DNA of 64,000 nucleotides from Parapedobacter lycopersici (lineage in GTDB: Bacteria; Bacteroidota; Bacteroidia; Sphingobacteriales; Sphingobacteriaceae), in assembly GCF_024643285.1 (NCBI RefSeq), contig NZ_JAMSLW010000001.1, forward strand, positions 679,239 to 743,238. The letters are read 5' to 3'. Below are positions 13,327-53,604 of this stretch, one piece after another; the stretch's first letter is position 1, and each line of letters starts with the position of its first letter. The notes below the pieces were generated by a model. That model ran no database searches, was not told the origin of the DNA, and saw only the letters and a list, made by a program, of their open reading frames with translations. The translations under genes and the position numbers were made by a program.

Positions 13327-14796
13327 TTACCCATATTGTTGAACTGCAGTATTAATAGCATTTATACTACGGTCAATCTCCTCGAAATTCAGAGATGCAA
13401 ACCCTAACCTAAGACCGTTTAAATCGCTAAATAAAATGTTACTGCTGCAAGCAATACCTTGTTTTTTTAATGATGAAACGATTCGCCCGACATCATAATT
13501 GCTGTTAAAATTCATCCATACGGCCATCCCGCCGGACGGCACCTGGTAGGACACATAATGTCTTAAATACGTGTCCAGCTGCATACACATGTAGTCACGC
13601 CGCTCTTTGTACGTTTTGGCTGACTTCCTCAGGTGACGCTGCATCTCCCCATTTTCAAACAATGCCGCAACAGCATGCTCCATTAAAACATCCCCCCGGA
13701 TATCAATGGTCTTCCTGATCGCAGCAATGGCATTGATCAGGTCATCCGGCCCTACAATAAACCCAAGCCTTAACGAGGATGAAAAACATTTGGACAGACT
13801 GCCGATATAGATGACCCTGCCACCGTGATTGTAACTTGCCATGGGTAAGTAAGGTGCGGACGAATAATGGAAGTCATAATCATAGTCATCTTCTATGATG
13901 ACAAAATTATACGTATGGGCTAACGATAGCAACCTAATCCTTCTTTCCGGAGAAAGTGTCACCGTTGTAGGGTAGTGATGATGGGGAATTACATATACCC
14001 CCCGAACGTGCACTTGTTCACACACCTCAGCAATTTTCTCTACATCAATACCATAATCATCAACCGGAATCTCAATAACGCGCGCGCCGTTTGCTTCAAG
14101 TGATAATGTAGCGATACGATATCCCGGACTGCCGACAAGGTATACGTCACCCGCATTAATGAGCGCTTTACCAAGCAGGTAAATCCCCATCTGCGCACCA
14201 TTGGTGATAAAAATATTGGAGACGGAGTGATTGATACCACGCGTGCCGGCAAGGTGCGATACCAGCGTATCTTTTAACCGGGAAGATTTATATGCAGAAC
14301 CATAATTAGCTCCCCTTAGCTGGTAGTCCCGATCAGTCAGCGATTTAAATTCCCTTAGCAGCGCTTTATACGGGGCCATTCTCGAATCCGGCAAACCATC
14401 ATCTATAAAAATGTCACCGAAGCTTTCTACGTTGTCAGCAAACTGAGGGATCCTGTTCTTTAAGGAAACTGGTGATTTGCCCGGATATCTTGGTCCCGAC
14501 ACGGTTTTGTTAGGAATATCAGCGATCAAAATGTCGGAATTTACATAATAGCCGCTTTTGTTTTTTGAAATGATCCATCCCTGGATAATCAATTCCTCAT
14601 ACGCCGAAACGATCGTTTTTCGATGCAACTGAAGTAAATCCGCAAGCATACGCGAGCTTGGGAGTTTAGTGCCTGCCGGAATAGTACCGCTATTTATCAG
14701 GTTAACCAAACACATCGCGATCTGTTCATAGACAGCTCTTTTACTACTGGGATCAATGCTTATTAATGTTTGATAGGGAAGCATCTGGACTACCAT
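13327..14796 (-). CDS. MocR-type regulator (GntR DNA-binding domain fused to aminotransferase domain)
   Basis: A 489-residue regulator of the MocR/PdxR group. Residues about 10-80 form a GntR winged helix (VYEQIAMCLVNLINSGTIPAGTKLPSSRMLADLLQLHRKTIVSAYEELI). From about 110 on it is a fold-type I PLP domain, with the expected PLP lysine in YIGSLSKCFSSSLRLGF and FIIEDDYDYDF upstream. Such proteins use the aminotransferase domain to sense PLP or amino compounds. I start at the ATG at 14796; the frame begins at GTG 14814, and ATG 14784 is also possible. It is divergent from an AhpD-like gene and an acetyltransferase gene, its likely targets. Confidence 0.87.
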   Translation of the reverse strand: MVVQMLPYQTLISIDPSSKRAVYEQIAMCLVNLINSGTIPAGTKLPSSRMLADLLQLHRKTIVSAYEELIIQGWIISKNKSGYYVNSDILIADIPNKTVSGPRYPGKSPVSLKNRIPQFADNVESFGDIFIDDGLPDSRMAPYKALLREFKSLTDRDYQLRGANYGSAYKSSRLKDTLVSHLAGTRGINHSVSNIFITNGAQMGIYLLGKALINAGDVYLVGSPGYRIATLSLEANGARVIEIPVDDYGIDVEKIAEVCEQVHVRGVYVIPHHHYPTTVTLSPERRIRLLSLAHTYNFVIIEDDYDYDFHYSSAPYLPMASYNHGGRVIYIGSLSKCFSSSLRLGFIVGPDDLINAIAAIRKTIDIRGDVLMEHAVAALFENGEMQRHLRKSAKTYKERRDYMCMQLDTYLRHYVSYQVPSGGMAVWMNFNSNYDVGRIVSSLKKQGIACSSNILFSDLNGLRLGFASLNFEEIDRSINAINTAVQQYG

Positions 14797-14828
14797 GCGT
14801 TTTATATCTGGCACACAAAGCTAGTCCA
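14786..14828. promoter_or_regulatory. Candidate MocR operator, divergent promoter region
   Basis: Two perfect inverted 7-mers, TGGACTA (14786-14792) and TAGTCCA (14822-14828), 29 nt apart. Between and beside them lie two -7 type boxes: TAGCTTTG on the minus strand (14816-14823) for the MocR gene, and TATATTTG on the plus strand (14838-14845) for the AhpD-like gene. Neither has a clear TTG at -33, consistent with regulator-dependent promoters. Confidence 0.5.
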
Positions 14829-14861: not shown

Positions 14862-15299
14862 ATGGCAAAGCGGAAATTTTTAAGAGACGTAGACCCGAAG
14901 GCATTTGAAGTGATGTTAGGATTTGAGAACTACCTGGCGAAAAGCTCACTGGACCGGATACACGCAAACCTGATTAAAGTCCGTGTGTCACAAATCAATG
15001 GCTGCGCCTACTGCATTGACAAACACATCGAGGAGGCGCTTAAAGCCGGAGAAGACGCCCGCCGGATATTTGTATTGGCCGCATGGCATGAAACCCCTTT
15101 CTTCTCAACGGAAGAACGGGCAATATTGGCCTTAGCAGAAGAAATGACACTGATTGTGCAACACGGTGTTTCTGATGCGGTTTATGACACGGCTATAGCT
15201 GTGCTGGGACAGCAATATACAACCGAGGTCATGATGGCAATCATTGCGATGAATGCCTGGAACCGCGTTGGCATTACCACCGGGCGCAAACCCCAATAA
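14862..15299 (+). CDS. Carboxymuconolactone decarboxylase/AhpD-like protein
   Basis: A 145-residue protein with the AhpD redox motif: Cys48-x-x-Cys51 and His55 in GCAYCIDKH. Members are alkylhydroperoxidase-like disulfide reductases or, in one branch, decarboxylases; the CxxC-His arrangement favours a peroxide- or disulfide-related role. All-helical, soluble, no signal. It is the first gene after the divergent MocR regulator and is followed 7 nt later by a GNAT gene, an arrangement I recall as common in Bacteroidota. Confidence 0.88.
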   Translation: MAKRKFLRDVDPKAFEVMLGFENYLAKSSLDRIHANLIKVRVSQINGCAYCIDKHIEEALKAGEDARRIFVLAAWHETPFFSTEERAILALAEEMTLIVQHGVSDAVYDTAIAVLGQQYTTEVMMAIIAMNAWNRVGITTGRKPQ

Positions 15300-15758: not shown

Positions 15759-15789
15759 TTGCGCCGAAGGGCAACTCGTGTTACTTTTG
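15759..15789 (+). promoter_or_regulatory. Promoter of the TetR gene
   Basis: TTG at 15759-15761, 20 nt, then TACTTTTG at 15782-15789: a full match to the Bacteroidota housekeeping promoter pattern. The TetR-type operator begins at the last base of the -7 box. Confidence 0.75.
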
Positions 15790-15803
15790 CTAACGCTGTT
15801 AGG
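15789..15803. promoter_or_regulatory. TetR-type operator, copy 1
   Basis: GCTAACGCTGTTAGG: an imperfect dyad sharing CTAAC...GTTAG with the perfect palindrome upstream of the efflux operon. It overlaps the predicted transcription start of the TetR gene, fitting autorepression. Confidence 0.75.
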
Positions 15804-15816
15804 GAAGGTAACCAAG

Positions 15817-16425
15817 ATGAGTATTGTAGAAAGAAGATTACGGGAGAAAGAAGCCATGCGGACCAACATCCTCACCACGGCTTGGCAGATCGTAAAGGAC
15901 GAGGGCTGGCAATCGTTGTCTATCCGCAAAATCGCCGATGCGATCCAATACAGTGTACCCGTAATCTACGATTACTTTGAAAACAAGGACGCCATCCTGC
16001 TTGAGTTTGGCAAACAGGGATTTGAACAGCTCATTGCGAAACTGGCAGCAGCAAAGGACAGTACGCCGGATCCGGCGGAGCAGCTCAAGGCAATAGCCGA
16101 TGCGTATTGGATATTTGCTTTCAAGAATAAGGAATTCTACCAGCTGATGTGGGGAATGGGTGCGCCCACCTGTGAAATGGATAAATGCATGCCTGAGCGC
16201 TCAATTTTCAGGGACCTGGTAATGGCACCCATGATTGAAGTCATCAACAAGGCAAACGGTGAGGATGCTGAAACCAATGCGTGTCTTAAATACCATACTT
16301 TCTGGTCCATCCTGCACGGATTGGTTTCCATTAAGATGGTGGCACCGGCGGACGACACCGAGCAACTGAATAAACTGGTGCTCGACGACGCCATCACCGG
16401 CTTTATCAAAAACCTGAAGATCTAG
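15817..16425 (+). CDS. TetR/AcrR family transcriptional repressor
   Basis: A 202-residue regulator with an N-terminal TetR helix-turn-helix (about residues 15-60: ILTTAWQIVKDEGWQSLSIRKIADAIQYSVPVIYDYFENKDAIL) and a ligand-binding C-terminal domain of the TetR_C_33/WHG type (FAFKNKEFYQLMWGMG). The frame starts at 15778, but the ATG at 15817 gives the normal N-terminus and lies downstream of the predicted promoter. A matching palindrome stands before this gene and before the efflux genes that follow, so it very probably represses itself and the pump, with release by a pump substrate. Confidence 0.88.
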   Translation: MSIVERRLREKEAMRTNILTTAWQIVKDEGWQSLSIRKIADAIQYSVPVIYDYFENKDAILLEFGKQGFEQLIAKLAAAKDSTPDPAEQLKAIADAYWIFAFKNKEFYQLMWGMGAPTCEMDKCMPERSIFRDLVMAPMIEVINKANGEDAETNACLKYHTFWSILHGLVSIKMVAPADDTEQLNKLVLDDAITGFIKNLKI

Positions 16426-16528: not shown

Positions 16529-17719
16529 ATGAACAGTAACTTTCCAACTCATGTGAAATATACCCCAACCCGATTTTTATTGCCGCTCGTCGGACTTACC
16601 CTGCTCGTTATCGCCCAGGCATGCAGCACATCCACCGGAAGTGAACAAACGGCCGAGTCGCCGCAACGCCTGCCGGTATTGACCCTGCACCCGCAGCAGG
16701 CCACCACTTACAACGAGTACCCTGCGGCCCTCGAAGGCAGCAAGGATATCGAAATACGTCCCCAGGTGGAGGGTCAGCTTGAACATATTTATGTCGACGA
16801 AGGTGCATTTGTACAACAGGGGCAGCCGCTCTTCCGCATCAATGCCCGGGTATATACCGAGCAGCTCAATAACGCCAAGGCAACCTTGGCCGCAGCAGAG
16901 GCCAACCTCACCAATGCGCGGATCGATGTCGGCAAGCTCACCCCATTGGTCAAAAACCAGGTTCTTTCGGACGTGCAGCTGGATGCTGCCCTGGCAGCCG
17001 AACGGGTTGCCGAAGCTAATGTACTGCAAGCGAAAGCCCTGGTCGAAAGCGCACAGATCAACCTCGGTTACACGGTAATATCAGCTCCGGTATCCGGCTA
17101 CATCGGCCGTATCCCCTTTAAAATGGGCAGCCTCGTTGGTACATCAACACCTCAGCCGTTGACCGTACTCTCAGAAATCCGGAACGTGTTTGCTTATTTC
17201 TCCCTGAGTGAGAATGATTTCATCGGGTTCAAGAACCGGGTAGCGGGCAACACGATCGCCGATAAGATCAGCAATATGCCACCTGTAGAACTGGTGCTGT
17301 CCGACGGAAGTACCTACGCCCAGAAAGGAAAGGTGGAGGTCGTTTCGGGACAGTTTGATGACCGTACAGGCACCATTACCTTCCGGGCGGTATTTCCAAA
17401 CGAAGAAGGTTTGTTACGTTCCGGCAATACCGGGAAAATCCGGATACCTGATGTATCACCGTCGGTCATCCTCGTGCCGCAGGAAGCGACCTTCGAATTG
17501 CAGGACAAGGTGTTTGTCTTTGTTCTGGCCGACAGCAACCGGGTGGAGAGCAAGCCGATACCCGTCGCGGGCCGGAGTGGTACGTACTACCTGGTCGAAG
17601 ACGGCGTGAAGGCAGGCGACCGCATCGTGTATGCCGGATTGGACCGCCTGCAGGATGGTTCGCGCATCATACCGGAGCCCGTAGCTCCGGATAGCCTGAT
17701 TGCCCGGGCGACGCTATAA
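16529..17719 (+). CDS. RND efflux periplasmic adaptor (membrane fusion protein), lipoprotein
   Basis: A 396-residue adaptor linking the inner-membrane pump to the outer-membrane channel. The N-terminus is a lipoprotein signal with lipobox-like VIAQAC, acylated Cys at 32. Then come the first lipoyl half (IEIRPQVEGQLEHIYVDEGAFVQQGQPLFRI), a coiled hairpin (AKATLAAAEANLTNARIDVGKLTPLV...), the second lipoyl half (LGYTVISAPVSGYIGRIPFKMGSLV), the beta-barrel and the membrane-proximal domain. This is the AcrA/MexA layout. It is followed after 44 nt by the pump-channel fusion gene. Confidence 0.93.
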   Translation: MNSNFPTHVKYTPTRFLLPLVGLTLLVIAQACSTSTGSEQTAESPQRLPVLTLHPQQATTYNEYPAALEGSKDIEIRPQVEGQLEHIYVDEGAFVQQGQPLFRINARVYTEQLNNAKATLAAAEANLTNARIDVGKLTPLVKNQVLSDVQLDAALAAERVAEANVLQAKALVESAQINLGYTVISAPVSGYIGRIPFKMGSLVGTSTPQPLTVLSEIRNVFAYFSLSENDFIGFKNRVAGNTIADKISNMPPVELVLSDGSTYAQKGKVEVVSGQFDDRTGTITFRAVFPNEEGLLRSGNTGKIRIPDVSPSVILVPQEATFELQDKVFVFVLADSNRVESKPIPVAGRSGTYYLVEDGVKAGDRIVYAGLDRLQDGSRIIPEPVAPDSLIARATL

Positions 17720-17763: not shown

Positions 17764-20700
17764 ATGTTACAAAAATTTATCGAACGGCCGGTGCTATCGA
17801 CCGTCATATCCATCTTATTGGTTATACTTGGCGCAATTTCAGCGTTCACACTGCCCATTTCCCAGTTTCCGGACATTGCCCCGCCCACCGTGGTGGTAAC
17901 GGCTTCATATCCCGGTGCCAACGCCGAAACGGTGGCCCGCTCGGTGGCGACGCCCATTGAGGAAGCGGTAAACGGGGTGGAGAACATGACTTACATGACC
18001 TCCAATTCGAGCAACGACGGCAGCATGACGCTGACTGTATTTTTCAAACAGGGAACCGACCCGGATATCGCGGCGGTAAACGTGCAGAACCGCGTGTCCA
18101 AAGCAAGCAATAAAATCCCACAGGAGGTAATCCAGGCGGGCATATCCACGCAAAAGCAGCAAAACAGCTTCCTGATGTTCGTGGCGCTCACCAGCAAGGA
18201 CAGCCTGTATGATGAAGCATTTATCCAGAATTACCTCAAGATAAACGTTATCCCGCAGATGCAGCGGATACCGGGCGTAGCAGAGGTGCAACCGTTCGGC
18301 GGGCGTGAGTACGCCATGCGCATCTGGTTGAAACCGGACCGCCTTATGGCGTACAACCTGTCGCCCCAGGATGTTATGCGAGCCATTGGCGACCAGAACG
18401 TGGAAGCGGCCCCCGGCAGACTGGGACAAAGCAGTCCCGAAATGTTCGAATACGTACTGAAGTACAAAGGCAAACTCAGTCAGCACGAAGACTACGAAAA
18501 CATGATCATCACGGCAACCAACGACGGACAGCTTATTCGCCTGAAAGACGTGGCCCGGGTGTCGTTCGGTTCGTTTTCCTATGCGACCAACAGCCGCCTG
18601 AACGGGGGTGCTACCTCGGGTATTGCGCTGCTGCAGACCGCGGGTTCCAATGCCAACGAAATCCTGATCGAGGCAAAACGGCAGATTGATGTGCTTTCAG
18701 AAACACTGCCCAAAGGCATTGAGCCGGTCATCATGTTCAACGCGAAGGATTTTCTCGACGAATCGATCAGTCAGGTAAATCATACACTCATCGAAGCGTT
18801 CTTCCTGGTGTTCCTTGTCGTGTTCATTTTCCTGCAGGATTTCCGCTCTACGCTTATTCCGGCCATCGCCGTACCCGTAGCCATCATCGGTACCTTTTTC
18901 TTTATGCAGCTTTTCGGGTTCAGCATCAACCTGCTTACACTGTTTGCGCTGGTGCTGGCCATCGGCATCGTGGTCGACGACGCGATCGTCGTCGTGGAGG
19001 CCGTCCATTCGAAAATGGAACGGACGGGGCTGTCGCCCCGGGATGCCACCCAGGAGTCGATGAAAGAAATATCCGGTGCCATCGTTTCCATCACGCTGGT
19101 GATGGTGGCCGTATTCGTGCCGGTTACTTTCATGCAGGGGCCTGCCGGCGTGTTCTATACCCAGTTTGCCTTTACGCTGGCCGTGGCCATTCTTATTTCG
19201 GCACTGAACGCACTGACACTCAGCCCGGCGCTTTGCGCCCTGTTCCTGAAGCACACGCACGCCGACGGCCATGAAACCGGCAACAGCGGCGGGTTCCTGA
19301 AACGGTTCTTTACCGCGTTCAATGTGGCATTTACTGCCATCACCGAAAAATACGTGAAATCCCTACAGCTGCTGATGCGCCGTAAATGGGTCGTGATATC
19401 GGGTCTGGCATTGGTTTCTGCGGTCACGGTGGTTATGATCCAGCGCACCCCCACGGGGTTCATTCCCACGGAAGACCAGGGTTTTGTGCTGTATGCCGTA
19501 AATACGCCGCCGGGCAGTTCGCTGGCACGGACAGAACGGGCAATGAAAAAAATTGAGGACATTGTGGCCAATGAGCCGTTTACCCTGAACCATTACCAGG
19601 TGGATGGACTTAACTTCATCTCAAATGCCAATGCAGCTCCCTATGGGGCCGGGTTTATCCGTACAAAACCGAAAGACCAGCGCGGACCCATTAAGGATTA
19701 TGAAGCCATCGCAGCAAGCCTCACCCAAAAAGTAGCGGAAGAAGTAAAGGGCGCGCAGGCCGTATTCTTTACCTTCCCCACCGTGTCCGGTTTCGGCAAC
19801 GTCGATGGCTTCGAGTTCATGCTGCAGGACCGCGGCAATGGGTCGCTCGAAAAACTCGATGCCACCGCCAAGGCATTTATCGCTGCATTGTCCGAACGGA
19901 AGGAAATCGCATTTGCCTTTACCACGTTTGCGGCCAACAACCCGCAATATGAACTGGTAATCGACGATGAAAAGGCCAAGCAGCTGGGCGTCAATATAAG
20001 CGACCTGCTGCAAACGGTGCAGATCTATTTCGGAAGCACTTTCGTGTCGGACTTCAACCGTTTCGGAAAATTCTACCGGGTCATTGCGCAGGCCGATATT
20101 CCCTACCGCGCCAGCGCCGCATCCCTCAACGAGATTTATGTAAAAAATGCCGAGGGTGGCATGGTAGCTGCCAATACAATGGTGACCTTGAACCGCGTAT
20201 ACGGTCCTGAAACGGTAACCCGGAATAACCTGTACAACGCGGTGACCATCAATGGAAAACCCAATGTGGGATATAGTACCGGGGATGCAATCGCGGCCAT
20301 TGAGGAGACTGCCAGTGAGGTGCTGCCGCGCACATTCGCCTACGAGTGGACCGGCATGACCCGCGAGGAAAAAAGCGCGGGGTCACAGCTTACCGTCATC
20401 TTCATCATGAGCCTGGTGTTTGTCTTCTTTCTGCTGGCGGCACAGTATGAAAGCTACATTCTTCCGCTGGCGGTGGTCACCACCATCCCCCTGGGGATAT
20501 TCGGTGTTATGCTGTTCATCAACCTGATGGGTATCGAAAATAACATCTACGTGCAGGTGGCCATGATCATGTTGGTCGGTCTGCTGGCAAAGAATGCCAT
20601 CCTGATTGTGGAGTATGCGCTGCAGCGGCGAAAGGCAGGCATCGGACTGCTTGAATCGGCGTTGGAAGCCTCACGGTTGCGGCTTCGTCCCATCCTGATG

Positions 20701-22329
20701 ACCTCCTTCGCCTTTATCGTGGGTATGATTCCCCTGCTGCGTGCAACAGGTGGATCGGCTTTGGGCAACCATTCCATCGGTGCCGGCGCCGTGGGCGGAA
20801 TGCTCACCGGGGTTGTGCTGGGTATATTCGTCATCCCGGTGCTCTTCGTGATTTTCCAGTACCTGCAAGAGCGCGTAAGTGCCAAACGGAGCGGTAAGCT
20901 GGCCATGCACCCCGTCGCCCTGCTGCTGGCGTTTTCGGCCCTTGCCTATTCCTGCAGTACCGGCAGGGAAGCGGTTCACACCGACGGCACGGTGCCGGAC
21001 ACCTTCCGGACAACAGCACTCTCCCCTGCCGGCGGACCGGTGGAAGATTCCACCAGCATTGCCCAGCTGGAATGGAAGCAGTTCTTTACCGATACTGCCC
21101 TGCAGCATATTATCGATAGCGTACTGGCGCGCAACTTCGACATGCAGGTGGCCCTAAATACCATTACACTGAATGAGGCATACCTGAAACAGGCCCGCGT
21201 AGCCTGGCTACCCACCGTGCAGGCCAATGTGTCCGCCAATACGTCGCGGCCGTCGCAAAACAGTTTGAATGGCCTTAACCTGGCCGATTTTATCGGCACC
21301 AACCATATTGAGGATTACACCGCATCCCTGGGTGTGAGCTGGGAAGTGGATGTATGGGGTAAGATACGGCAGCAGAAACAGGCTTCCCTGGCAGCTTACC
21401 TGCAAAGCACGGAAGCGGTTAAGTCGCTCCAGACCCGCCTGATCACGGCTTCCGCGTCAGCGTACTACACCCTGCTGATGCTGCACGAACAACTTGATAT
21501 CACCCGGCGCAACATCGCGCTGAACGACAGCACACTGCGTGCCATCCGTCTCCAATACACGGCCGGGCAGGCATCCATCTTAGCCGTGCAGCAGGCCGAG
21601 GTACAGCTGGAAAAGACAAAAGCCTGGATACCCAGGCTTGAACAGGCACTTGCCATGCAGGAAAACGCCCTGAGCATCCTGATGGCCAATGAACCGCAGG
21701 AGATCGGGGTCAGCACACAGTTGCACCGATTTTCCGTACCCGAACAGTTTGCCGTTGGCATACCGGCGGCCATGGTGAGCCGCCGACCGGATGTGAAAGA
21801 AAGTGAATATGCGCTCGACATTGCCAATGCGCAGGTCGGTATTGCACAGGCCAACCGCTACCCGGCTTTGCGCATTACCGCTGCGGGCGGACTGAATGCA
21901 TTCCAGGCCAGCAACTGGTTTGTTACGCCTGCGTCGCTGTTCGGCAACTTGGCAGGCAACGTCATGCAGCCCATATTCAACAGCCGCAAACTGAAGACAC
22001 AGTTTGAAGCCGCCAAGATCCAGCGGGAGAATGCCGTGATCCGCTTCAGGCAAACCGTATTAAACGCCGTCGGCGAAGTATCCGACGCGCTCGTACAGCT
22101 CGATAAACTGAAAGCCCAGATCGAAATCACGCAGTCGCAGCAGAACAGGCTCGAAAAGGCCATTCCCAATGCGCAGCTGCTTTTTGCCAGCGGCATGGCA
22201 TCTTACCTGGAGGTAATTACGGCCCAGCAAAATGCACTGCAGAGCGAATTGGAACTGGCCGAACTGAAGCGGCAGCAGATCGAAGCATACGTACTGCTAT
22301 ACCGGAGTCTGGGCGGCGGTGTTAATTAA
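17764..22329 (+). CDS. RND multidrug efflux pump fused to its outer-membrane channel
   Basis: A 1521-residue protein. Residues 1 to about 1045 are a complete HAE1/AcrB-type pump: the TM4 proton-relay Asp405-Asp406 (GIVVDDAIVVVE) and the TM10 Lys943 (LVGLLAKNAILIVEYAL) are intact, as is the FIPTEDQGF loop. From about 1048 to the end is a full NodT/TolC-type outer-membrane factor of some 474 residues (LGVSWEVDVWGKIR, VSRRPDVKESEYALDIANAQVGIAQANRYP). Both parts have the length of the stand-alone proteins. At the joint, Met1048 begins a hydrophobic stretch ending in lipobox-like ALAYSC (Cys1064), like the signal of a free lipoprotein channel. No stop separates them. It may be cleaved by signal peptidase II, or the channel may also be started internally at 20905. 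Confidence 0.92.
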   Translation: MLQKFIERPVLSTVISILLVILGAISAFTLPISQFPDIAPPTVVVTASYPGANAETVARSVATPIEEAVNGVENMTYMTSNSSNDGSMTLTVFFKQGTDPDIAAVNVQNRVSKASNKIPQEVIQAGISTQKQQNSFLMFVALTSKDSLYDEAFIQNYLKINVIPQMQRIPGVAEVQPFGGREYAMRIWLKPDRLMAYNLSPQDVMRAIGDQNVEAAPGRLGQSSPEMFEYVLKYKGKLSQHEDYENMIITATNDGQLIRLKDVARVSFGSFSYATNSRLNGGATSGIALLQTAGSNANEILIEAKRQIDVLSETLPKGIEPVIMFNAKDFLDESISQVNHTLIEAFFLVFLVVFIFLQDFRSTLIPAIAVPVAIIGTFFFMQLFGFSINLLTLFALVLAIGIVVDDAIVVVEAVHSKMERTGLSPRDATQESMKEISGAIVSITLVMVAVFVPVTFMQGPAGVFYTQFAFTLAVAILISALNALTLSPALCALFLKHTHADGHETGNSGGFLKRFFTAFNVAFTAITEKYVKSLQLLMRRKWVVISGLALVSAVTVVMIQRTPTGFIPTEDQGFVLYAVNTPPGSSLARTERAMKKIEDIVANEPFTLNHYQVDGLNFISNANAAPYGAGFIRTKPKDQRGPIKDYEAIAASLTQKVAEEVKGAQAVFFTFPTVSGFGNVDGFEFMLQDRGNGSLEKLDATAKAFIAALSERKEIAFAFTTFAANNPQYELVIDDEKAKQLGVNISDLLQTVQIYFGSTFVSDFNRFGKFYRVIAQADIPYRASAASLNEIYVKNAEGGMVAANTMVTLNRVYGPETVTRNNLYNAVTINGKPNVGYSTGDAIAAIEETASEVLPRTFAYEWTGMTREEKSAGSQLTVIFIMSLVFVFFLLAAQYESYILPLAVVTTIPLGIFGVMLFINLMGIENNIYVQVAMIMLVGLLAKNAILIVEYALQRRKAGIGLLESALEASRLRLRPILMTSFAFIVGMIPLLRATGGSALGNHSIGAGAVGGMLTGVVLGIFVIPVLFVIFQYLQERVSAKRSGKLAMHPVALLLAFSALAYSCSTGREAVHTDGTVPDTFRTTALSPAGGPVEDSTSIAQLEWKQFFTDTALQHIIDSVLARNFDMQVALNTITLNEAYLKQARVAWLPTVQANVSANTSRPSQNSLNGLNLADFIGTNHIEDYTASLGVSWEVDVWGKIRQQKQASLAAYLQSTEAVKSLQTRLITASASAYYTLLMLHEQLDITRRNIALNDSTLRAIRLQYTAGQASILAVQQAEVQLEKTKAWIPRLEQALAMQENALSILMANEPQEIGVSTQLHRFSVPEQFAVGIPAAMVSRRPDVKESEYALDIANAQVGIAQANRYPALRITAAGGLNAFQASNWFVTPASLFGNLAGNVMQPIFNSRKLKTQFEAAKIQRENAVIRFRQTVLNAVGEVSDALVQLDKLKAQIEITQSQQNRLEKAIPNAQLLFASGMASYLEVITAQQNALQSELELAELKRQQIEAYVLLYRSLGGGVN
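20905..20955 (+). other. Internal lipoprotein signal at the pump-channel joint
   Basis: In-frame ATG at 20905 (Met1048), then a 16-residue n-h-c type signal closing in A-Y-S-C with Cys1064. A basic patch (AKRSGK) precedes it, so the whole could insert as a thirteenth membrane helix or serve as a lipoprotein signal. Confidence 0.65.
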
Positions 22330-23725: not shown

Positions 23726-25096
23726 CTATTGATCAAACCCCCGGATGTACGGGCGGCTCGGCGGACGCTCCCCGGTGCTGAACTGCGCACCGCGTGTGGT
23801 CCGGTATTTCATATTCAGGACAGGCGTTTCGACCCGGCGTCCGACAGCTGCATAACGGCCGTTCTCCCAGTTGGATTCCATGTAATAGTTCACGATTCCG
23901 GTTGACAGCAGCAACCGTTCCGCGTTGAATGGCTCTTTCTTGGTCACCATCATCTCGGTAATCCAGTGCGGCTGGGCATTCGAGGCATGGTACTGGTCGA
24001 AAGGTCCGGGCCAGCCAAGCATGGAAACGATCGTTGGCTCTTCCTGTCCTTCGATTTCCCCGGCATAGGTCCACCCCACTTCCCTTGCACCGATTACCGC
24101 GGCCATTGTTCCATCATTATACTCCACAACACATATATTGGTCTGCGGAGTCTGCTGAAAATGGCCTGGCTCAAACTTAAATCGCTTCGCCACGGCATCA
24201 AGTAACCTGGCCGCCCAGGAATTATTTTCGACCCACTTCCACGCCTCGGACCCCTGGATGGACTGCACCGACCGGACTCCGGTCTCTCCTCCCTTGCGGC
24301 GTTCCACAAAGGATTGAAGTACGTCAATGGCATGGAAAATAGCCCCTTCATCCGCGGTGCCGCCAAGCATAACCGAATGCTTTATGGGCGTATCGGAAGG
24401 AAGTTCTACTTCGGGTTCGCGGTAGTAGACCGGTATGGATGAGCCTCCGGTCAATGGAAAGTTCAGCTCACGGGACTTGTCAAACATCCATTTGGCTTCA
24501 TTCCAGTTATAGGAAAGGTGCTTGTCGTTAAAGACTGGCACCGAGCGCTTGCTCTGCTCGAAAACCTTGATGACCTGGCTATAGATCCACCAGCGTGGCA
24601 GGAGCCAATGTCCCTGGAGATCTTTTCGGTAATTCCCGTGTTCCGCGACGATGACCACGCCGTCCACGGCAAGCTCCTCCCCTCCGAGGGTGATCGCCTC
24701 ACCTACAGTATTAAAAATCGGGATTCCTTTTGCTTTACATATTTTTTGGCCAAGTTGGCTTTCGTCAAGCTGGTGGATGTAAACCGAGACCACCTCCACG
24801 CGCGATTCCTTGTGGGCACCTTCCCACCAATAACCGTCCAGCAGCTTGGTCACAATCCAGTCCGCATGGGATCTTGTTGCGGCCCAATAGCTGGCAAGAA
24901 AGGCGATGCGGGGCCGTTGTTGCGCAGTCCGTGGAACAGCACCGGATGCCATGCTGGTCAAAGCCGTCAAACCGGCCACGCCGGCCACACCCAGCATTTC
25001 ACGACGGGTGAAGCGTAAATTCGATACTGTAGTTTCAGTGTTTTGAGATGAATCTGCCGCCCTGCCGGCTGCAGCTCCGGGTTGTTTATCTGTCAT
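23726..25096 (-). CDS. Tat-exported protein of unknown function
   Basis: A 456-residue protein with a long polar leader and then a clear twin-arginine signal near residue 30 (FTRREMLGVAGVAGLTALTSMASGA). The mature part starts RIAFLASYWAATRSHADWIVTKLLDGYWW and has a Rossmann-like feel (VDGVVIVAEHGNY, HSVMLGGTADEGAIFHAIDVLQSF) reminiscent of Gfo/Idh/MocA-adjacent proteins, but I recognise no catalytic motif and assign no function. It resembles conserved Tat proteins encoded near oxidoreductases and peptidases in Bacteroidota. It is upstream of, and in line with, the M19 peptidase gene, so a shared pathway is possible. Confidence 0.65.
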   Translation of the reverse strand: MTDKQPGAAAGRAADSSQNTETTVSNLRFTRREMLGVAGVAGLTALTSMASGAVPRTAQQRPRIAFLASYWAATRSHADWIVTKLLDGYWWEGAHKESRVEVVSVYIHQLDESQLGQKICKAKGIPIFNTVGEAITLGGEELAVDGVVIVAEHGNYRKDLQGHWLLPRWWIYSQVIKVFEQSKRSVPVFNDKHLSYNWNEAKWMFDKSRELNFPLTGGSSIPVYYREPEVELPSDTPIKHSVMLGGTADEGAIFHAIDVLQSFVERRKGGETGVRSVQSIQGSEAWKWVENNSWAARLLDAVAKRFKFEPGHFQQTPQTNICVVEYNDGTMAAVIGAREVGWTYAGEIEGQEEPTIVSMLGWPGPFDQYHASNAQPHWITEMMVTKKEPFNAERLLLSTGIVNYYMESNWENGRYAAVGRRVETPVLNMKYRTTRGAQFSTGERPPSRPYIRGFDQ

Positions 25097-51960: not shown

Positions 51961-53604
51961 GTGAAAAAAAATTACCTACTGGCCTTATTAAGTGCATTCC
52001 TGCTCTGGTTAGCCTGGCCGCCCATACCATTTACCGCTCCGCTCCTATGGATAGCACTTGTACCGCTGCTGTGGGCCATGGAAGCGGTTATGCGGGACCC
52101 ATACAACAAAAAGGGTCTTAAAATAACGCTGCTTGGCGGTTTTACCGGACTCCTGTGGAATACAGCATCCATTTATTGGGTTTTCAATGCGCTGAATGCG
52201 GCAATGCCGGTCTACGCCGCCGCATTGGTATCTCTTATTCCCTTTGCACTGGCGGCCGCGTTGATGGCGCTGGCCTTCCGGCTGTATTACCAGCTGCGCA
52301 AGCACCACGGCATCGGGCTTTCGATGGCCGGACTGGTTTCGTTCTGGATAACGTATGAATACCTGCATCAGACCTGGGATCTGGCTTTTCCATGGATGAA
52401 CCTGGGCAATGGTTTTGCCAGCAGCCACCAGTTGGTCCAATGGTACGAATACACCGGGGTATACGGGGGTACGCTGTGGATCTGGCTGGCTAACATATTG
52501 CTGTTTATGGGAATATTATCGGTCAAAGACAAATTCGGTCCCATCCACCGATACAAATGGTTCGTCGGTTTTCTGCTCCTGGTTACATTACCCTCCGGCT
52601 GGTCGCTCTACCGGTACACGACCTACGAAGAGCACATAAACCCGGCTGATATCGTCGTTGTCCAGCCCAACATCGATCCTTACGGAAAATACAGCTTCCT
52701 TTCCCCCGAATCCCAACTCGACCAGCTGATCCGGTTGTCTGACTCGGTGGCCCAGCCGAATACCGAATTCTTTATCTGGCCGGAAACGGCTATCGCCAGT
52801 CCACGGGGATATAACGAAGATGAGTTCCGCGAAAACCCCGCATTTCTCCGCCTGCAGGATTTTCTCTCTAATTACAAGAACGGCAATGTGCTTTCGGGGA
52901 TCGAAAGTTACCGTGTGTACCATCAGCCCGAAACACCTACGGCACGTAAGTTTGAAGGGGCCGAGCTATATTACGATGCCTTTAATGCAGCCGTTTTAGT
53001 TGAAAATTCGGCCCGGCTGCAGTTTTACCACAAATCCAAGCTGGTCGCCGGCGTGGAGCAGCTGCCCTTCGGAAGCGCCCTGGCGTTCATGACCCCGCTA
53101 TTCCAGGCATTCGGCGGCACAACCGGAGGATATGGCAGCCAGGAAACACCCTCGGTCTTTTACTCGCAAAGCGGCATCGGTGCCGCGCCGGTAATCTGTT
53201 ACGAATCCATATGGGGCAGCTATGTTGCCGAATACGTAGAGCAGGGGGCACAATTCATCGCCGTGATTACCAATGACGGCTGGTGGGGCAATACCGCGGG
53301 GAAAGACCAGCATCTGGCCTACGCCAAATTGCGCGCCATCGAAACCCGCCGCTGGGTGGCCCGTTCGGCAAATACGGGGATCTCGGCGTTCATCAATCAA
53401 CGCGGTGATGTGGTCCAGCAAACCGACTGGTGGACTGCTGATGCACTGAAACAGGACATCAACCTGAATGAGGCGATTACCTTTTATGTGCGTGCAGGTG
53501 ATTACCTGGCTTATGCAGGGTGCGCGGGAAGCCTGATTTTCGGCACCGTATTGCTGGTCACCTTTGGAAGAAGATCCAGGTATCGCAAACAGGCACAGCC
53601 TTAA
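51961..53604 (+). CDS. lnt: Apolipoprotein N-acyltransferase
   Basis: A 547-residue inner-membrane enzyme that adds the third acyl chain to lipoproteins. Six to seven N-terminal membrane helices precede a periplasmic nitrilase domain with the triad Glu275 (IWPETAIAS), Lys358 (FYHKSKLVAG) and Cys413 (PVICYESIWG); one more helix follows. The start codon is GTG at 51961, 6 nt after the previous stop. The usual YxKxxLVPFGE motif appears altered as KLVAGVEQLPFGS, common in Bacteroidota. Relevant to the lipoprotein adaptor and channel of the efflux operon here. Confidence 0.92.
   Translation: MKKNYLLALLSAFLLWLAWPPIPFTAPLLWIALVPLLWAMEAVMRDPYNKKGLKITLLGGFTGLLWNTASIYWVFNALNAAMPVYAAALVSLIPFALAAALMALAFRLYYQLRKHHGIGLSMAGLVSFWITYEYLHQTWDLAFPWMNLGNGFASSHQLVQWYEYTGVYGGTLWIWLANILLFMGILSVKDKFGPIHRYKWFVGFLLLVTLPSGWSLYRYTTYEEHINPADIVVVQPNIDPYGKYSFLSPESQLDQLIRLSDSVAQPNTEFFIWPETAIASPRGYNEDEFRENPAFLRLQDFLSNYKNGNVLSGIESYRVYHQPETPTARKFEGAELYYDAFNAAVLVENSARLQFYHKSKLVAGVEQLPFGSALAFMTPLFQAFGGTTGGYGSQETPSVFYSQSGIGAAPVICYESIWGSYVAEYVEQGAQFIAVITNDGWWGNTAGKDQHLAYAKLRAIETRRWVARSANTGISAFINQRGDVVQQTDWWTADALKQDINLNEAITFYVRAGDYLAYAGCAGSLIFGTVLLVTFGRRSRYRKQAQP

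Follow-up and report, generated by a model that had tools for sequence, protein, structure and literature searches.

The pump and the channel of a tripartite RND exporter are usually viewed as the products of separate genes, which meet across the periplasm. The HAE1 systems AcrAB-TolC and MexAB-OprM have in common with the locus described here the pump, adaptor and lipoprotein-type channel domains as well as adjoining regulator and adaptor genes; in these systems, however, pump and channel are separate genes, whereas at our locus a single frame carries both, with a lipoprotein signal inside it. Bacteroidota also possess CusA/CzcA-TolC single-gene fusions, in which an RND pump is likewise followed by an in-frame channel with a signal peptide at the joint. 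These differ in combining a heavy-metal pump with a TolC-type channel and an xxA|Q signal-peptidase-I motif, in contrast to the lipobox found here. FbcH, the cytochrome b/c1 precursor of Bradyrhizobium, is a polytopic protein with an internal signal and a second subunit, and is split by a signal peptidase. It resembles our fusion in that the second subunit lies behind an internal signal after a polytopic membrane protein, but it belongs to a respiratory complex, is processed by signal peptidase I and gives two products that both stay with the inner membrane.

Domain databases may list a pump–channel architecture. A description of a natural RND pump–channel fusion was not found in the open-access literature (most subscription papers lie outside it), nor does one appear in the accessible portions of PMC8277102, PMC11960050, PMC5837995, PMC13082787 and PMC4446572. 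Here we describe a bacterial gene that codes for an inner-membrane efflux pump and, in the same frame, for its outer-membrane channel. Comparison with its relatives suggests that the product is probably synthesised as a single long chain, which the cell then cuts into two matched parts.

One reading frame for a pump and a channel

The locus lies in a stretch of 64,000 nucleotides from Parapedobacter lycopersici, referred to below as the window. Its features are as follows, in window coordinates:

15778..16425, + strand: gene of a TetR-family regulator, preceding the adaptor gene (Pfam TetR_N 41.9 bits, TetR_C_33 34.5 bits)
16529..17719, + strand: periplasmic adaptor (membrane fusion protein) gene (TIGR01730 264 bits, cut-off 95)
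17764..22329, + strand: pump–channel fusion ORF, 1521 aa (ORF reading)
17764..20856, + strand: RND pump part, residues 1-1031, with D405, D406 and K943 (PF00873 and TIGR00915 above cut-offs)
20857..20910, + strand: net-positive stretch, residues 1032-1049 (..QERVSAKRSGKLAMH), predicted n-region of the internal signal
20905..20907, + strand: ATG codon of Met1048, a proposed internal start that is not conserved
20911..20952, + strand: hydrophobic, uncharged run of 14 residues (1050-1063) that reaches lipobox position -1
20953..20955, + strand: Cys1064 codon, encoding the residue predicted to become +1 on cutting by signal peptidase II (Cys in 31/31 fusions)
20953..22326, + strand: NodT/OprM-type outer-membrane channel part, residues 1064-1521 (full TIGR01845 profile)
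52147..53409 (contig 731385-732647), + strand: lnt (apolipoprotein N-acyltransferase) match, unlinked to the fusion (TIGR00546 246.6 bits, cut-off 132.9)

The ORF scan of the window finds 1521 uninterrupted amino acids between the ATG at 17764 and the stop at 22327-22329. Pfam ACR_tran (PF00873) matches residues 1-1031 over profile positions 1-1020 of 1021 with 1041 bits, and the NCBIfam model TIGR00915, which we take to stand for HAE1, covers residues 2-1039 with 1076 bits, above its curated cut-off of 940; for NF000282, a pump model closer to this sequence, the score of 1196 stays below the cut-off of 1250. The relay residues D405, D406 and K943 presumably correspond, by motif, to D407, D408 and K940 of AcrB, that is, to the Asp-Asp pair of TM4 and the Lys of TM10 in the proton relay. 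Together with the full-length ACR_tran and TIGR00915 matches they mark the pump half as an HAE1 RND permease, and its solved relatives include MexB and AcrB. The channel half matches TIGR01845 (NodT, NCBIfam) over residues 1056-1519 and profile positions 2-460 of 460 with 277 bits, above the curated cut-off of 210, and this full-length match identifies it as an outer-membrane factor of the NodT/OprM type; Pfam OEP matches the fusion ORF in two stretches. Solved relatives of the channel half are OprM (the best, at 157 bits), SilC and CusC. A complete pump and a complete channel in 17764-22329 had been predicted from the DNA letters, and the stop-free frame and the full-length Pfam and NCBIfam matches bear this out; D405, D406, K943, M1048 and C1064 are likewise all found at the positions originally given.

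Since the adaptor gene adjoins the fusion gene, two structural genes could encode the whole tripartite system. The N-terminus of the adaptor is itself lipoprotein-like as judged by eye (..LLVIAQAC32). In eight of nine relatives' loci chosen for this check, four fused (L098, L099, L100, L102) and four split (L101, L103, L115, L170), a TetR gene and then an adaptor gene lie upstream; at the ninth, L106, the adaptor is present upstream but a TetR match is absent. Profile searches of the source genome gave matches above cut-off for lspA (two), lgt (one) and lnt (one).

Further genes surround the efflux cluster. Upstream of it, a GntR/aminotransferase fusion at 13327-14814 (-), which we assume to be MocR-like, diverges from a carboxymuconolactone-decarboxylase-family gene at 14862-15299 (+). 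A 456-aa ORF at 23726-25096 (-) has an N-terminus that resembles a twin-arginine signal (..FTRREMLGVAGVAG..) and gave no Pfam match at E 0.001.

Recurrence of the fusion among relatives

The same fusion is present without interruption in five other genomes at 74-93% identity; Parapedobacter pyrenivorans, P. indicus and P. defluvii are the species that three of these genomes match. With the window's own genome these form clade A (six genomes from two genus codes; 6 of 121 family genomes), whose members share a mean identity of 88% in the pump and 76% in the channel. Three further pump–channel fusions occur in the source genome: two belong to the CusA type, and the third has a lipobox at its joint. 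This third one is a second HAE1-NodT fusion, 44% identical to the window protein, and belongs to clade B, which comprises at least 24 of 122 family genomes from six genus codes and was confirmed by ORF scan in 24/24. A single additional HAE1-NodT fusion occurs in Flavitalea sp. BT771 (L102); it is placed separately in the tree and has a Pro/Ala-rich linker of 60 residues and the joint lipobox FSAC.

On a FastTree phylogeny of 188 pump sequences (145 split pairs, 31 fused, and 12 uncounted, with the channel out of view or cut off), the fused or split state changes three times, giving fused groups of 6, 1 and 24 genomes, with support of 100 for clade A and 100 for clade B; as the root was not inferred, the tree counts changes and by itself gives no direction. 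The 11 split sisters of clade A have a separate channel gene just downstream of the pump, with a signal that ends in Cys. The start of the channel gene was scored in seven of them and lies 4-16 nt past the pump stop in six and 254 nt past it in one. With channels that begin 4-16 nt after the pump stop, fusion via loss of the stop would be simple. Among all split pairs, 55 of 145 share a frame, which is near the chance expectation of one third. At L054 (G057:C30:3758-8320) one TAG separates an in-frame pump and channel.

A fusion was counted only after an ORF scan, since the length of an open frame misleads: some frames of ~1550 contain a pump and then a stop (e.g. L050). Conversely, L200 (G050) had the look of a split pair but is fused, through a long hydrophilic linker. 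In this clade B locus (G050:C1, ~342990-346118) the linker is Asp/Gly/Pro-rich and is followed by another lysine-rich stretch, after which comes the internal signal, the linker being 58 residues long versus about 22-31 in the other 23 clade B members.

Four fused loci (L098, L099, L100, L102) are among the 80 named best-scoring loci. A fused form outside the family was absent from the best 29 new loci (L207-L235) of a phylum sample of 395 genomes, and the best 28 new loci (L271-L298; all with a pump) of a phylum sample of 296 genomes contained 0; rare or distant fusions could escape such scans of best loci, and Flavitalea proves the existence of at least one such case. Among the plasmid matches listed for the window protein (12 of at least 5000), permease and channel features are both named in 10, while one (H16) has TolC-family features alone and one (H22) has no annotation.

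Signals at the joints of HAE1- and CusA-type fusions

A lipoprotein signal ending A-Y-S-C1064 had been proposed at the joint, and a reading of the residues agrees with it: the order is ..QERVSAKRSGKLAMH-PVALLLAFSALAYS-C1064.. The joint thus comprises a charged n-region, an h-region and a lipobox with Cys at +1, which we take to be the sequence pattern of an LspA substrate. By the rules assumed here AYSC is a weak lipobox, with Ala at -3 and Tyr at -2; the clade A relatives in the second genus (g7) have the lipoboxes LYSC and LSAC.

The lipobox Cys is present at the joint in 31/31 HAE1-NodT fusions from three fused groups. A Prosite-style lipobox rule, in the form assumed here, fits 31/31 fused joints and has 0 matches within the same 31 pump domains. 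Because the joint Cys was located by an [AGS]-Cys motif, the joints satisfy the final two pattern positions by construction; L055 and L062 each offered two [AGS]C candidates, of which the later was taken. Whole-protein MAFFT alignments, which are independent of the motif, place the Cys in one column in 6/6 members of clade A and 24/24 of clade B. When the clade B rows are anchored on the Cys, this residue alone is invariant across 36 columns, with an entropy of 0 against 1.26 bits for the next lowest column and a median of 2.42 bits. The surrounding joint drifts: in pairwise comparison, clade B members share a mean identity of 26% in the joint and 31% in the 35 residues past the Cys, compared with 56% in the channel and 80% in the pump. 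The channel part is without any other Cys in 27/31 fusions, and the uncharged stretch before the Cys measures 13-17 residues in 30/31 and 28 in L102. In clade A, part of the conservation could reflect inheritance, the clade being young.

The strict lipobox rule fits 130 of 145 split channels; the 15 that it misses include four sister channels, which have LNAC. In the survey of homologues that the original prediction had called for, fused forms keep the lipobox Cys (31/31), and in split sisters a pump stop is followed by a channel gene. These fused proteins, each a single ORF with an internal signal that persists across the three fused groups, are candidate polyproteins.

The CusA-type fusions provide a parallel. 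Both L008 (G000:C19:80710) and L010 (G000:C12:47085) of the source genome consist of a CusA/CzcA-type pump followed by a TolC-type channel (domains were checked in one of the two), and their joints end GALA|Q and GARA|Q. Across 31 distinct CusA-type fusions the joint has xxA|Q in 31/31 and a lipobox in 0/31. The pattern requires A and Q and the loci are the best-scoring matches to a fused query, so that they give no frequency and the informative figure is 31/31 versus a 9% background (59 of 647 control windows of the same CusA-type proteins). Split CusA pumps also occur, as several of the matches listed fit the pump half only. In Bacteroidetes, cleavage by signal peptidase I exposes Gln at +1 in most substrates (PMC5837995). 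An ATG 40 to 15 codons before the Gln is missing from 19/31 CusA-type fusions. The 12 plasmid matches listed for a CusA-TolC fusion bear one heavy-metal pump annotation each, named either 'CusA/CzcA family heavy metal efflux RND transporter' or 'heavy metal efflux pump, CzcA family'.

The class of the predicted internal signal follows the class of the channel, a lipobox with NodT and A|Q with TolC-type channels. Such tracking fits what cutting would require, rather than a mere membrane helix.

Proposed processing, rival readings and implications

We consider it highly likely that the gene encodes a pump–channel precursor whose internal lipoprotein signal is cut by LspA before Cys1064. The C-terminus of a twelve-helix RND pump is cytoplasmic. 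Export of the channel part would be restarted by the internal lipoprotein signal that the charged tail forms with the hydrophobic stretch of 14 residues; Lgt would transfer diacylglycerol onto Cys1064, LspA (signal peptidase II) would cut before this residue, and Lnt may acylate the N-terminus of the freed channel. The lipoprotein channel would reach the outer membrane while the pump would remain in the inner membrane, and the two would meet again via the adaptor encoded just upstream. A cut at Cys1064, if it occurs, would entail equal production of pump and channel; RND pumps and channels both act as trimers, and one-to-one synthesis would therefore suit assembly. Topology, cleavage, export, lipidation and equal production are what we infer from sequence comparison. 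The proposed cut by signal peptidase II at Cys1064, one of the routes in the original prediction, is well supported by that comparison, given the Cys in 31/31 fusions, the drifting joint and the lspA, lgt and lnt matches in the genome.

The same prediction had also raised an uncut protein, in which the joint forms a thirteenth membrane helix and ties the pump covalently to the channel across the periplasm. The single uninterrupted frame agrees with this, and a membrane-crossing segment is needed in any case to place the channel on the periplasmic side. A plain helix, however, needs no terminal small residue and Cys, yet 31/31 HAE1 fusions have both, and the xxA|Q motif is found in 31/31 CusA joints; moreover, an uncharged stretch of 13-17 residues in 30/31 fusions is short for a membrane helix by the yardstick that we assume. 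The comparison therefore disfavours a covalently tied complex, which we regard as unlikely. A cut at the joint by another protease, with a different role for the Cys, appears more improbable still: a charged n-region, a hydrophobic stretch and a lipobox form the known signature of Lgt and LspA, and the channels of the split sisters bear the same type of signal.

The remaining readings concern the translation and the integrity of the gene. The channel might also, or mainly, be made from an internal start at Met1048, whose ATG lies 16 codons ahead of the Cys in the window, and 29/31 fusions have some ATG, GTG or TTG 40 to 12 codons before the Cys, so that weak internal starts may exist in individual fusions. 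The Met1048 codon itself is TTG, CTG and ATC in three congeners and ATG in the window only, and both relatives of genus g7 lack an ATG in that interval, so that this Met is absent from all five other members of clade A. More widely, ATG is missing from this interval in 21/31 fusions, and in two the interval contains neither ATG, GTG nor TTG. A scan of 20700-21100 gave no sigma-70-type promoter match, a scan that omits Bacteroidota promoters and is silent on translation starts. As a main route the Met1048 start was rejected on the grounds that its codon is not conserved, and we hold a contribution from it to be very unlikely. The conserved Cys in a drifting joint, together with the unconserved Met1048, favours a cut by signal peptidase II over an internal start. 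The oddity of the arrangement might by itself evoke an assembly error or a decaying gene, but the frame is intact in six genomes at 74-100% identity, both halves are full length in the window, and clade A retains 88% identity in the pump and 76% in the channel. The five other genomes with the same fusion argue that it is not an assembly error, and this reading has next to no probability.

Extending cleavage of the precursor to both types of fusion, we think it likely, if with less confidence than for the window's gene, that many Bacteroidota build tripartite RND pumps from pump–channel polyproteins whose internal signal is cut by a peptidase matched to the channel. LspA would serve the NodT lipoprotein channels and signal peptidase I, with Gln at +1, the TolC-type channels. 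If this is true, the polyprotein fixes the ratio of pump to channel at one to one, and one reading frame yields two proteins for two membranes. A single chain would give rise to an inner-membrane pump and an outer-membrane lipoprotein, in an arrangement that arose more than once. It would also correct annotations that name the pump half alone for fused genes, and would show signal peptidases working on a signal placed after twelve membrane helices. The fused systems would thereby allow the need for one-to-one production of pump and channel to be tested in a natural setting.
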